This document shows, piece after piece, positions 2,622 through 38,555 of a stretch of 64,000 nt of DNA. The position numbers were made by a program, and so were the translations under genes. The stretch covers positions 558,001 through 622,000 of the forward strand of contig NZ_JACIJE010000001.1 of the NCBI RefSeq assembly GCF_014199195.1, read 5' to 3'. The notes under the pieces are model-generated. The model searched no databases. It was not told where the DNA came from and worked only from the letters and a program-made list of their open reading frames with translations. Position 1 is the first letter of the stretch. Every line of letters starts with the position of its first letter. The stretch is from Neoroseomonas alkaliterrae (GTDB lineage Bacteria; Pseudomonadota; Alphaproteobacteria; Acetobacterales; Acetobacteraceae).

Positions 2622-3152
2622 CTACTTCCCGCCGCGCGCGTCGATCGGCCCGCCGTAGCCGCCGCCGACGCCGACCGGCGCCGCGCCGCCCGCGCGGGAG
2701 AGGCGGATGCGGTCGGTCTGGGTGATGACCACGCGCTCGCCCACCGTCAGGCCGAGTTCGTTCGTCTGCACCACGGCGCGGGTCTGGCCGGTGTCGTCGC
2801 GGATGATGAACTCGACGGCGTTGCCGCGCGTCACCCCTTCCTCGATCGCCGCGCCGGCGATGCCGCCCGCGAGCGCGCCGACCACGCCGCCCACGGTGCG
2901 CGCGCGCCAGTCGCCGCCGATGGTCGAGCCGACGAGGCCGCCCGCCACCGCGCCCGTGCCCGCGCCGATGCCGCTGCGCGTGCCGCTGACCGCGACCGGG
3001 CGCATGCCCACGATGGTGCCGTAGGAAACATAGCCCGAGGTGCCGAGGGCGTAGCGGTCCACCGTGGTGTTGGTCGCGGGCGCGCAGGCCACGAGCCCGC
3101 CGCCCAGGGCGATGACGGCGGCGAGCGGTGCGAGGCGGCGGGCTTGGAACAT
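2622..3152 (-). CDS. Glycine-zipper 2TM outer-membrane lipoprotein (SlyB/Pcp-like)
   Basis: 176-residue lipoprotein. The leader ends in lipobox LVAC (Cys24). A Gly-rich double segment at about residues 60-110 (SGIGAGTGAVAGGLVG then VGALAGGIAGAAIE) matches the Rick_17kDa/glycine-zipper family related to SlyB, PcpY and the rickettsial 17-kDa antigen. The ATG at 3152 is preceded by AGGGAG; the open frame continues further upstream to 3554, but that part overlaps the divergent promoter region and is not homologous. The role is probably outer-membrane integrity; function in this organism is inferred. Confidence 0.85.
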   Translation of the reverse strand: MFQARRLAPLAAVIALGGGLVACAPATNTTVDRYALGTSGYVSYGTIVGMRPVAVSGTRSGIGAGTGAVAGGLVGSTIGGDWRARTVGGVVGALAGGIAGAAIEEGVTRGNAVEFIIRDDTGQTRAVVQTNELGLTVGERVVITQTDRIRLSRAGGAAPVGVGGGYGGPIDARGGK

Positions 3153-35194: not shown

Positions 35195-35794
35195 ATGACG
35201 GAGGAGACGGCCGACCGCAAGGGTTGCGCTGGCGATGCGGATGCCGCGGCCGGGCCGAGGCTGGGCCGGCGCCTCGTGATGCTGCGCCTCTCGGCGGGCG
35301 CGGCGGCGGTGGCCACGGCCGCGCCCGCGGCGCAGGCCATCGAGCCGACGCCCGTTCAGTACCGGACCGGCATCACTGACGCCGACCCGAGCGACGGGCC
35401 GGGCTATGGCCGCGGCGGCTATCGCGGCCGGCCGCGCACCGGCATCACCGATGCGGACCCGAGCGACGGGCCGGGCTACGGCCGCGGCGGCTATCGCGGG
35501 CGACCCTATACCGGCATCACCGATTCCGATCCGTCGGACGGCGCCAACCAGGGCCGTGGCGGCTATCGCCCACCGGTCCGGCAGGGACGGCCCTATACCG
35601 GGATCAACGATGGCGATCCGCATGACCCCTCCGGCTACGGCACGGGGTGGCGGCAGCGCGGCGCGCCCTATACCGGCATCAGCGATTCCGACCCGACCGA
35701 TGGCGCCGGGCGCGGCCGCGGCGGATACCGCCCGCGCAACGTGACCGACAGCGACCCCTACGACGCGCCGGGGCGCGGCCGCGGCTGGCGCTGA
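35195..35794 (+). CDS. Exported tandem-repeat protein, D/G/R-rich (candidate modification substrate)
   Basis: 199 residues. Residues 1-48 are a leader with a twin-Arg-like stretch (GRRLVMLRLSAG) and an Ala-rich core ending AAQA. Residues 57-199 hold six imperfect repeats of 17-29 residues with consensus Y/R-TGITDSDPSDG-x-GRGGYRGRP; repeats 1 and 2 (residues 57-80 and 81-104) are identical in protein. Every unit keeps D-x-D-P-x-D followed by a Gly/Arg segment. A strong SD (AAGGAGGG) precedes ATG 35195. The Cupin_4 oxygenase gene starts 25 bp downstream, same strand. I do not recognise a characterised family; function is unknown. Confidence 0.82.
   Translation: MTEETADRKGCAGDADAAAGPRLGRRLVMLRLSAGAAAVATAAPAAQAIEPTPVQYRTGITDADPSDGPGYGRGGYRGRPRTGITDADPSDGPGYGRGGYRGRPYTGITDSDPSDGANQGRGGYRPPVRQGRPYTGINDGDPHDPSGYGTGWRQRGAPYTGISDSDPTDGAGRGRGGYRPRNVTDSDPYDAPGRGRGWR
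35363..35791 (+). repeat. Six in-frame tandem repeats inside the D/G/R-rich protein
   Basis: Repeat starts at about 35363, 35435, 35507, 35594, 35669 and 35738. The first two are exactly 72 bp apart and encode identical 24-residue units with synonymous base differences, showing that selection, not only recent duplication, keeps the protein repeat. Later units vary in length by insertions after the Gly/Arg segment. Confidence 0.9.
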
Positions 35795-35819
35795 GCGCCC
35801 CCTAGGCGGACAGGAGCGG

Positions 35820-36998
35820 ATGAGCACGACACTCGTGGAAGAAGCCTGGGCGCTCGCCTTCGGGACGCTCCCGCTGGAGGACGGCCTCGCGATGCGCGAG
35901 GGCAGCGCGTGGCGGCTGATGCCGGGCAACGACCCCGGCCGCTATGCCGGGCTGCTCTCGGTCGCCGACATCGACGCCTTCCTGCGCAGCGATGCCGCGC
36001 GCACGCCGCGCGTCTCCATGGCCGATGGCGGGCGCAAGGGCAGTGCCGCCGTGCCGGTCGAGGACTACATCGAGGAAGGCGGCGACAGGGTGGACCTGCC
36101 CGCGCTGTTCGCCTGCCACGATGCGGGCGCGAGCCTCGTCATCTCGCAGTTCCACGAGCTGCATCCGCCGCTCGCGCGCTTCTGCCGCGGGCTGGAGAAG
36201 GCCTTCCTGCACGCGGTGCAGGCCAACATCTACCTCACGCCGCCGGGCGCGCAGGGCTTCCGCGTGCATTTCGACACCCACGACGTGCTGGTGCTGCAGG
36301 TCTCGGGCCGCAAGTCCTGGCGCGTCTGGGACGCCATCCCCTATCCCGCGCCGACGCGGCACACGCCCTGGTCCAATGCCTTCGCGCCGGAGGGCGAGCC
36401 GCATGAGCTGGTGATGGCGCCGGGCGATGCGCTCTACCTCCCGCGCGGCGTGCTGCACGAGGCGATGGTGCAGGCGGGCGAGGAGCCCTCGCTGCACATC
36501 ACCGTGGGCTTCCTCGAACCCGGGCTCGGCGAGATGCTGCGCAACGCCATCGCCGAGCTGGAGGCCGAGGAGCCGGCGCTGCGCGCCGCCATGCCGACCT
36601 GGCGCCTCGCCGAGCCGCGGGGAATGGAGGCGGTGCAGGCGCGCCTTTCCGCCGCGCTCGCCGCGCTCGGCAGGCCGGGCCTCGCGGACCGGATGGCGGT
36701 GGCCGCGCTGGACCGCCTGGCGCGCGATCGCATGGCGCTGCCCGCCCGCTCGCTGCACACGCCCCCGCCCGGCCCCGAGGACAGGCTGCGGCTGTCGGAG
36801 ACGATGCACCACAGCCTCGTGCCCCTTCCCGGCGGCGGCGCGTCGCTGCGCTGGTATGGCGGCGTCGAGAAGGTGACGGAGGCCGAGCTCGCCTGGCTGG
36901 TGGCGCTGGAGGAGGGCGCGACGGCGGCCGAACTCGGCGAGGGCGCGCTGGCATTCTGCCGCCGCCTCGCCGCCGCGGGGCTGCTCGAGCGCGCCTGA
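35820..36998 (+). CDS. Cupin_4 (RoxA/FIH-like) 2-oxoglutarate/Fe(II) oxygenase
   Basis: 392 residues of the JmjC-like Cupin_4 family. The iron triad is visible: His150 and Asp152 in VHFDTHDVLVLQ and His213 in YLPRGVLHEA; Lys165 in SGRKSW is placed like the 2-oxoglutarate ligand region of RoxA/YcfD. A winged-helix-like C-terminal half (about residues 235-392) follows. RoxA hydroxylates Arg in ribosomal protein L16, and FIH-type relatives hydroxylate Asp or Asn. Gene order and 25-bp spacing make the upstream Asp/Arg-rich repeat protein its likely substrate (inference). Confidence 0.88.
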   Translation: MSTTLVEEAWALAFGTLPLEDGLAMREGSAWRLMPGNDPGRYAGLLSVADIDAFLRSDAARTPRVSMADGGRKGSAAVPVEDYIEEGGDRVDLPALFACHDAGASLVISQFHELHPPLARFCRGLEKAFLHAVQANIYLTPPGAQGFRVHFDTHDVLVLQVSGRKSWRVWDAIPYPAPTRHTPWSNAFAPEGEPHELVMAPGDALYLPRGVLHEAMVQAGEEPSLHITVGFLEPGLGEMLRNAIAELEAEEPALRAAMPTWRLAEPRGMEAVQARLSAALAALGRPGLADRMAVAALDRLARDRMALPARSLHTPPPGPEDRLRLSETMHHSLVPLPGGGASLRWYGGVEKVTEAELAWLVALEEGATAAELGEGALAFCRRLAAAGLLERA

Positions 36999-37083: not shown

Positions 37084-37407
37084 TCAGGCGGGCGCGGTGA
37101 TGGTCTGCAGCACCGCGAAGCCTTCGAACTGCGGCGGGCCGAGCGTGGTGGGCTTCGACACCGCGCCCGCGCCGGCATGGGCGCGGCGGAACTGCTCGGA
37201 GCGCGTCCAGGCCTCGAAGGCCTCGCGCGAGGCCCAGAAGCTGGTCGAGGCATAGAGGATGTGGTCCTCCGCCTGCGGCCCCTTGAGCAGATGGAAGGCG
37301 AGGAAGCCTTCCACCTCGTGCAGGTGGCTCTCGCGGGTCAGCCAGGCCTGCTCGAAGCGTTCGGCCTCGGCGGGGATGACGCGGAAGCGGTTGGTGGCGA
37401 CGAACAT
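37084..37407 (-). CDS. Antibiotic biosynthesis monooxygenase (ABM/HmoA-like) protein
   Basis: 107 residues forming a single ferredoxin-like ABM domain: FVATNRFRVIPAEAERFEQA, EGFLAFHLLKGP and STSFWASREAFEAWTRSEQF. This pattern matches HmoA/IsdG-like proteins that can degrade haem, but the catalytic residues cannot be confirmed by eye. ATG 37407 has AAGGAGAGG just upstream; the frame is open to 37611 without homology. Confidence 0.85.
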   Translation of the reverse strand: MFVATNRFRVIPAEAERFEQAWLTRESHLHEVEGFLAFHLLKGPQAEDHILYASTSFWASREAFEAWTRSEQFRRAHAGAGAVSKPTTLGPPQFEGFAVLQTITAPA

Positions 37408-37428
37408 CGGCCTCTCCTTCAGGCGCGC

Positions 37429-37508
37429 GGGGCTGGTGGGGCGGCCGCGCGCGGAACCAGATCCAGATGCCCTGCGGACGAAGGTCGATCCTGTGTCCGC
37501 AGGGAATC
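37429..37508. repeat. Dispersed extragenic palindrome, copy A (hairpin plus tail)
   Basis: 37466-37508 is a hairpin with perfect 10-bp arms CCCTGCGGAC/GTCCGCAGGG framed by GATGCC and GGAATC. It is joined to a 36-bp tail (37429-37464) that recurs, exactly and inverted, at 52297-52332. Lies between the stop of the MetE-like gene (37515) and the start of the ABM gene. Confidence 0.8.
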
Positions 37509-37514
37509 TGGCGG

Positions 37515-38555
37515 TCAGCCGCCGAGTTCGCGCCGCACGATCGCCGCGCCCTCGGCGAGCGCGCGCAGCTTCGCGAAGGCGCGATCCCGCGGCAGGTATT
37601 TCATGCCGCAATCGGGCGCGGGCACGATGCGCGCGGGCGGCAGCACCTCGAGGCCGGCGCGGATGCGCGCGGCGACATCCTGCGGCGTCTCGACCTCGGG
37701 CGAGGCGAGGTCGAGCACGCCGAGCATCACGGTCTTGCCCGGCAGCTCGCGCAGGATGGCGAGGTCGAGCCGCGGCTGCGCCGCCTCGATCGAGATCTGC
37801 GTCGCGGCGGTGGCGGCGAGTTCGGGCAGGAAGGAGTAGCCGCTCGGCTTCTCGTCCACCATCGCCGCATAGCCGAAGCAGAGATGCACCACCGTGGTGC
37901 CCGCGATGCCCTCGAGCGCGCGGTTGATGGCGGGGATGGCGTAGCGGCGCGCCTCCTCGGGGAAGGCCTGCATCCAGGGCTCGTCGAGCTGGATCACGTC
38001 GGCGCCGGCGGCCTTGAGGTCGCGGATCTCGGCGTTCAGCGCCGCGGCGAAATCCATCGCGAGCTCGGCATCGTCGCCATAGGCCTCGTTCTTCGCCTGC
38101 CGCGTCATGGTGAAGGGGCCAGGCAGCGTGATCTTCAGCGGCCGGTCGGTATTGGCGCGCGCGAAGGCGAGGTCGCGCAGCTCCACCGGCCGCGTGCGGC
38201 GGATGCGGCCGGTGACGCGCGGCACGATGGTGGGCTTGCCGGTGCGGCCGACGACCTCCGCCGGGCGGTCGCGGTCGATGCCCTCGAGCGCATTGGCGAA
38301 GTGGTTGGAGTAGCTCTCGCGGCGGATCTCGCCATCGGTGATGATGTCGATGCCGGCGCGCTCCATGTCGCGCATGGCGAGCAGCGTCGCGTCGTCCTGC
38401 GCCTGCTGCAGGTGCGGCTCGGCCACGCGCCAGATCTCCGGCGCGCGCACGCGCGGCACGGAGCGGCCGCGCAGCGCATCGTGGTCCACGAGCCAGGCGG
38501 GCTGCGGATAGCTGCCGACGACGGTGGTGGGAAGGATGGGCAGGGGCTGCGTCAT
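37515..38555 (-). CDS. MetE-like cobalamin-independent methionine synthase family protein
   Basis: 346 residues corresponding to the C-terminal catalytic half of MetE. Conserved features: TTVVGSYPQPAWL at the start, ITLPGPFTMTRQAKNEAYGD, IQLDEPWMQAF, zinc-ligand motif HLCFGY (His and Cys) and PDCGMKYL (Cys). The N-terminal MetE domain is absent, as in core-MetE or MetE-like methyltransferases that use a different methyl donor. Start at 38555 chosen on family length. Followed downstream by palindrome copy A. Confidence 0.88.
   Translation of the reverse strand: MTQPLPILPTTVVGSYPQPAWLVDHDALRGRSVPRVRAPEIWRVAEPHLQQAQDDATLLAMRDMERAGIDIITDGEIRRESYSNHFANALEGIDRDRPAEVVGRTGKPTIVPRVTGRIRRTRPVELRDLAFARANTDRPLKITLPGPFTMTRQAKNEAYGDDAELAMDFAAALNAEIRDLKAAGADVIQLDEPWMQAFPEEARRYAIPAINRALEGIAGTTVVHLCFGYAAMVDEKPSGYSFLPELAATAATQISIEAAQPRLDLAILRELPGKTVMLGVLDLASPEVETPQDVAARIRAGLEVLPPARIVPAPDCGMKYLPRDRAFAKLRALAEGAAIVRRELGG

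Follow-up and report, generated by a model that had tools for sequence, protein, structure and literature searches.

A repeat-protein gene and a JmjC_2 oxygenase gene form a conserved pair in Neoroseomonas alkaliterrae and related bacteria: a probable substrate-modifier system

The window analysed here is a stretch of 64,000 nucleotides of the Neoroseomonas alkaliterrae genome (contig NZ_JACIJE010000001.1). Two adjacent genes on the same strand, separated by 25 bp, are present in it as the first-pass annotation had described; the upstream gene encodes a repeat protein and the downstream gene an Fe(II)/2-oxoglutarate oxygenase. Their features are listed in Table 1. A convergent gene follows (37084-37611, reverse strand), which matches a model of the heme-degrading protein HmuQ with 134.7 bits against a cut-off of 130.

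Table 1. Features of the two genes in the window
Feature	Position	Strand	Source
Repeat-protein gene, putative multicore substrate, 199 aa	35195..35794	+	ORF list
N-terminus with RR signal-like stretch GRRLVMLRLSAGAAAVATAAPAAQA, residues 1-48	35195..35338	+	sequence
Repeat unit 1, core TDADPSDGPGYGR	35375..35413	+	sequence
Repeat unit 2, core TDADPSDGPGYGR	35447..35485	+	sequence
Repeat unit 3, core TDSDPSDGANQGR	35519..35557	+	sequence
Repeat unit 4, core NDGDPHDPSGYG, then T, without Arg	35606..35641	+	sequence
Repeat unit 5, core SDSDPTDGAGRGR	35681..35719	+	sequence
Repeat unit 6, core TDSDPYDAPGRGR	35744..35782	+	sequence
JmjC_2 (PF08007) Fe(II)/2-oxoglutarate oxygenase, putative modifier, 392 aa	35820..36998	+	ORF list, profile match
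JmjC_2 domain, residues 119-236	36174..36527	+	Pfam profile match
H150 and D152 of the iron triad	36267..36275	+	alignment, sequence
K165, aligned with Lys of NO66	36312..36314	+	alignment, sequence
H213 of the iron triad	36456..36458	+	alignment, sequence

The repeat protein contains six units that follow the pattern [TSN]-D-x-D-P-x-D-x-x-[GN]-x-G-R. Six D-x-D-P-x-D motifs, each followed by a Gly/Arg segment, had been proposed; a motif count on the 199-aa sequence gave all six motifs, but the Arg of the G-R-G segment is not found in every unit, the fourth (NDGDPHDPSGYGTG) being devoid of it. The number of motifs is far above chance: 5000 shuffles of the protein yielded 4914 sequences with no D-x-D-P-x-D motif, 85 with one and one with two. 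No family was found above cut-off in a profile search of Pfam and NCBIfam; the best match, Propeller (PF06462, E = 0.042), lay below its own cut-off and was rejected. The chain is predicted to be disordered, with a mean pLDDT of 47.8 in a structure prediction from the single sequence, a kind of model that is often poor. Putative export was assigned from one feature, the RR (Tat-like) signal-like N-terminus ending in AQA. If this is a Tat signal, the absence of an adjacent exporter gene is accounted for.

The oxygenase was matched to PF08007 in the Pfam profile search with E = 2.7e-26 and 92 bits (cut-off 22). The iron triad His150/Asp152/His213, previously read as intact, was borne out: all three residues, together with Lys165, are invariant across 18 aligned oxygenase sequences. 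Lys165 aligns with a Lys of NO66; in NO66 and MINA53 this residue is the 2-oxoglutarate ligand. An AlphaFold2 model of the enzyme (mean pLDDT 85.5) was compared with solved structures; the nearest folds were those of NO66 and MINA53, matched over the whole length. The description of the enzyme as RoxA- or FIH-like had to be dropped. By bit score NO66 (80.7) and MINA53 (73.5) are nearer than RoxA/YcfD, the L16 arginyl hydroxylase (36.0), and they lead by fold as well; the score against the Cupin_8 (FIH-type) profile (24.5 bits) falls below its cut-off of 27.4, which places the protein outside the FIH type. A second JmjC_2 protein (C2:275061) is encoded in the same genome (G000) on another contig. 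In plasmid records, 25 Streptomyces matches were found (33-37% identity over about half of the query).

Within the genus, matches to the repeat protein were found in 29 of the 34 other genomes. Among the 35 genomes that include the present one, 29 carry both an oxygenase orthologue and repeats, five carry neither and one carries repeats only (Fisher 2e-5). One genome counted among the 29 (G008) has its orthologue split in two at the end of a contig. The genomes lacking a repeat match and an orthologue are G006, G014, G017, G026 and G034, the last of which has a 49-residue piece of the orthologue at a contig end; in the genome with repeats only (G005), one of the repeat genes is the last on a contig end, the contig being 4 kb long. 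A lower-scoring JmjC_2 match, resembling the second protein of G000, is present in all five repeat-less genomes, and this protein therefore does not track the repeats.

At 26 of 30 loci (29 from the genus and one from another family), the oxygenase gene is preceded by one to three repeat ORFs, and at several the end of the repeat ORF overlaps the oxygenase start. Three of the four misses have a repeat gene on another contig; the fourth, L061, is a fragment at the edge of a contig. Three loci from Roseomonas MAGs (L126, L132 and L136) show an oxygenase gene without a repeat neighbour, with the repeat gene on another contig (L069, L071 and L073). Additional repeat genes are scattered apart from the oxygenase, which suggests one enzyme with several substrates. 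In two genomes of the genus, a solitary repeat gene is followed by a same-strand gene for a large protein (L063, 2840-5596, reverse strand; L081, 6411-9395, forward strand); RTX/serralysin C-terminal matches were obtained for the L063 copy.

A scan of named genomes was carried out with one genome per species, and the best 80 of 207 confirmed oxygenase relatives were taken. The loci came from Neoroseomonas, Plastoroseomonas, Falsiroseomonas, Roseococcus, Rubritepida, Rhodovarius, Caldovatus, Sabulicella, Phreatobacter MAGs and others. With a repeat ORF defined as one with three or more units, a level reached by 0 of 10,939 shuffled ORFs, one to three same-strand upstream repeat ORFs were present at 72 of the 80 loci; these are not 72 independent events, since many loci are from close relatives (same-genus contigs, near-identical pairs such as L191/L192 and two contigs of one MAG). 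The nearest gap ranged from -7 to 1060 bp, and at nine of these loci the repeat ORF overlaps the oxygenase start by 4-7 bp. No repeat ORF was found downstream or on the opposite strand in flanks of up to 6 kb at the 80 loci. The remaining eight genomes all contain repeat matches, seven of them away from the oxygenase; at the eighth (L188, evidently the same genome as G008, as the two give identical matches) the repeat sequence lies immediately upstream, interrupted by a stop.

In a survey of the class (385 genomes), 53 genomes matched the enzyme profile. Thirteen matches in 12 genomes scored at least 285 bits, a clade boundary that was set after the score gap had been seen, and the other 47 scored at most 157. 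The repeat profile (A3) matched 11 genomes, all among the 12 with a clade oxygenase, and none of the other 373 (Fisher 2e-20); this zero may hide divergent repeats elsewhere, because the profile had been built from ORFs beside the oxygenase, partly in the same genomes, at most 17 candidates per genome were scored and adjacent repeat ORFs were missed in the phylum survey below. Twelve of the 13 high-scoring matches adjoin a repeat gene, one of them atypical (L090). In the exception, genome G236, which has a clade oxygenase, no repeat gene was detected in the 6-kb contig or in the genome. A survey of the phylum (398 genomes) gave eight matches above 285 bits, four of them new and from one family. 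Beside each of the four lie one to three short, divergently transcribed repeat ORFs; the repeat profile matched none of these adjacent ORFs, only a scattered one in G577, and hence undercounts repeats. The repeat gene is upstream in most cases, downstream in G049 and G265 and divergent in G577, G602, G702 and G706: the partnership of oxygenase and repeat gene persists while the arrangement varies. In the genome-neighbourhood check proposed with the first-pass annotation, where rare co-occurrence was to count against a pair, homologues of both genes co-occurred with very few exceptions. The pairing is real and old.

The linkage is confined to one clade of oxygenases. Other JmjC_2 loci had no repeat ORF neighbour (0 of 18, drawn from the 47 lower-scoring matches, within 1.5 kb on each side), and neither had the second JmjC_2 locus of the present genome. 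For a tree of 94 proteins, 96 clade ORFs were thinned to 66 by shared k-mers and all 28 others were kept; the 96 had been picked by score, so a few without an adjacent repeat gene are included. The 66 high-scoring oxygenases and one long-branch sequence (L245) are split from the other 27 by a 100/100 branch, with a bootstrap that had not settled. L245 itself (2749-3102, reverse strand, genome G725) is a 155-bit JmjC_2 protein encoded directly downstream of a small Nif11-leader ORF (PF07862, E = 7.9e-10) and may represent another JmjC_2 enzyme beside a RiPP-type precursor. At eight loci of Falsiroseomonas and related bacteria (L144, L145, L146, L147, L151, L152, L156 and L189), a second, distant JmjC_2 paralogue is encoded no more than 6 kb upstream of the clade enzyme; this paralogue groups with the C2:275061 protein.

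Neighbouring genes were clustered at 41 chosen loci. The oxygenases and the repeat genes were the most widely shared clusters; the next, which we take to be a TctC-like protein, reached 12 loci. An operon with a transporter or protease was rejected, no further cluster exceeding 12 of the 41 loci. A link to iron or haem through the HmuQ-like gene was also discarded, as this gene is in no neighbour cluster of four or more loci beside that of the query.

Conservation of the units was analysed in 126 unique repeat ORFs, with counts conditional on the anchor motifs. For units anchored on G-x-G-R and required to have two or more of the three Asp residues, D1 was retained in 577 of 577, D3 in 576, P4 in 564 and D6 in 576; for units anchored on D-x-D-x-x-D, R12 was retained in 559 of 586, G9 in 580 and G11 in 584. 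Codons at the invariant sites are mixed (D1, 370 GAC and 216 GAT; R12, six Arg codons), and this synonymous variation indicates selection at the protein level. The mature region consists of 26.6% Gly, 15.1% Arg and 14.3% Asp, with Lys at 0.1%, Glu at 0.1%, His at 0.3% and Cys at 0.0%. An RR pair occurs at most 70 aa ahead of the first unit in 122 of the 126 ORFs, and a lipobox-like Cys (loose pattern) in 36. A longer spacer, of the form T-D-x-D-x-G-x-x-x-D-P-x-G-x-G-R-G, also occurs in more distant families; two unit logos were prepared (440 and 29 units), with 11 units of unusual spacing set aside. A shared L-x-D-x-[DEQ]-I-like motif was seen ahead of the RR in repeat proteins from several families, at L241-L244, L246, L076, L088, L089, L224, L225 and L239 and is a candidate recognition site for the oxygenase.

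We consider it likely that the two genes form a maturation system in which a dedicated NO66/MINA-like hydroxylase modifies the repeat units before Tat export. The repeat protein would be made in the cytoplasm with its Tat-like signal and disordered Gly/Arg/Asp-rich T-D-x-D-P-x-D-x-x-G-x-G-R-G repeats. It would be bound there, where Fe(II) and 2-oxoglutarate are available, by the oxygenase, which would use Fe(II), O2 and 2-oxoglutarate to hydroxylate one invariant side chain per unit, probably at C-beta. The modified protein would then pass through Tat to the periplasm, and paralogues with a lipobox-like Cys may become membrane-tethered. A single oxygenase may act on several repeat proteins, both adjacent and scattered ones. 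The exported product would most likely be a multivalent polymer that binds metals or surfaces; that its clustered hydroxy-Asp residues bind metal, or that it has a structural role in the envelope, is a guess at its function.

JmjC hydroxylases in general act at C-beta of His, Arg or Asn/Asp, and His is the residue that the nearest solved relatives are known to modify. Since His is nearly absent from the mature repeats, the residue specificity of the present enzyme must differ from that of NO66 and MINA53, which leaves the invariant Asp or Arg as the target. Asp is the preferred candidate, held with about equal measures of confidence and doubt. Hydroxylation of the Arg in the G-R-G segment, in the manner of RoxA on L16 and with the system otherwise unchanged, is a possible but rather doubtful alternative. 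It is consistent with the retention of R12 through six synonymous codons and with the scarcity of Lys, from which it follows that Arg is not merely a charge. Against it, units without one Asp (2 of 577) are rarer than units without Arg (27 of 586), NO66 is a closer relative than YcfD, and the adjacent precursor gene in G361 (L090, 2799-3191, reverse strand) keeps D-x-D-P-x-D with no Arg in its repeats. This precursor would be useful for telling Asp from Arg modification.

It appears very unlikely that the oxygenase hydroxylates a ribosomal protein, as NO66 and RoxA do, and is adjacent to the repeat gene through shared regulation. Its nearest solved relatives are indeed ribosomal oxygenases of the same whole-length fold, and the L16 site of RoxA lies in a Gly/Lys-rich loop. 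The second JmjC_2 protein and its low-scoring counterparts in the five repeat-less genomes, however, leave a JmjC_2 protein free for a ribosomal role regardless. Shared regulation also fits poorly with a linkage limited to one clade yet spread over several families in upstream, downstream and divergent layouts, and with genomes that lack an adjacent repeat gene and still have repeats. Least probable of all is a calcium-binding or structural envelope protein that folds via D-x-D-P-x-D with the oxygenase as a non-catalytic, chaperone-like binder: the Asp-rich spacing does resemble Ca2+-binding loops, but such a binder would not need the triad and Lys165 that are invariant in 18 of 18 sequences.

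The proposed two-gene maturation system was compared with known ones. NO66 (RIOX1) and MINA53 (RIOX2) are histidyl hydroxylases, whereas the window oxygenase, at about 22% identity, is bacterial and tied to a nearly His-free, putatively exported repeat protein. The known substrate of RoxA/YcfD is ribosomal protein L16 (PMC6006756). In biphenomycin-type RiPP clusters, JmjC or cupin-like hydroxylases (BipG, BpmG and PbsQ) act on peptidyl Orn (PMC12707348, PMC12257519). These resemble the present pair in that such a hydroxylase acts on a ribosomal precursor peptide, and differ in the Orn target and in having several further enzymes in the cluster (MNIO, arginase and B12-rSAM), in place of a single enzyme and a repeat protein with a Tat-like signal. 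Bufferins are exported metallophores; their precursors carry a secretion signal and are modified by the iron oxygenase MNIO, and a sizeable share of the precursor genes is not located beside that of the enzyme (PMC12452194). The present pair falls outside the bufferins, which are defined by an MNIO enzyme and a Cys-containing precursor and use Cys-based chemistry and a Sec signal; here the enzyme is JmjC_2 and the mature region is practically free of Cys.

By linkage and co-occurrence, a ribosomal precursor is encoded together with a dedicated modifying enzyme, as is usual for RiPPs, and the two may work like a RiPP precursor-modifier pair, a likeness seen at the level of the genome. For eukaryotic PF08007 proteins fused to an RRE, the bacterial homologues that are closest have been placed in RiPP-like contexts (PMC12710340), in passages that do not name this system. 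The matches listed in the open-licence literature contain no account of this gene pair, which is a weak form of absence. The arrangement of precursor and iron oxygenase is known; the enzyme clade, the substrate family and the Tat-like signal are new here.

Hydroxylation of ribosomes is the activity for which JmjC_2 enzymes are best known. If the proposed reading is true, the JmjC_2 fold has been recruited to mature secreted proteins, and an orphan group of oxygenases would have a ready substrate. The pair would also offer a simple, genetically encoded two-gene route to multiply hydroxylated peptides. Tentatively, and with somewhat more doubt than confidence, we suggest that Alphaproteobacteria may export a new class of ribosomally made hydroxylated polymers, in which the NO66-like oxygenase would place several beta-hydroxyaspartates (or beta-hydroxyarginines) per chain on the disordered D-x-D-P-x-D / G-x-G-R-G repeats; Tat would deliver them to the envelope, where the clusters of hydroxylated Asp would bind a metal, for example Fe(III) or Ca2+.
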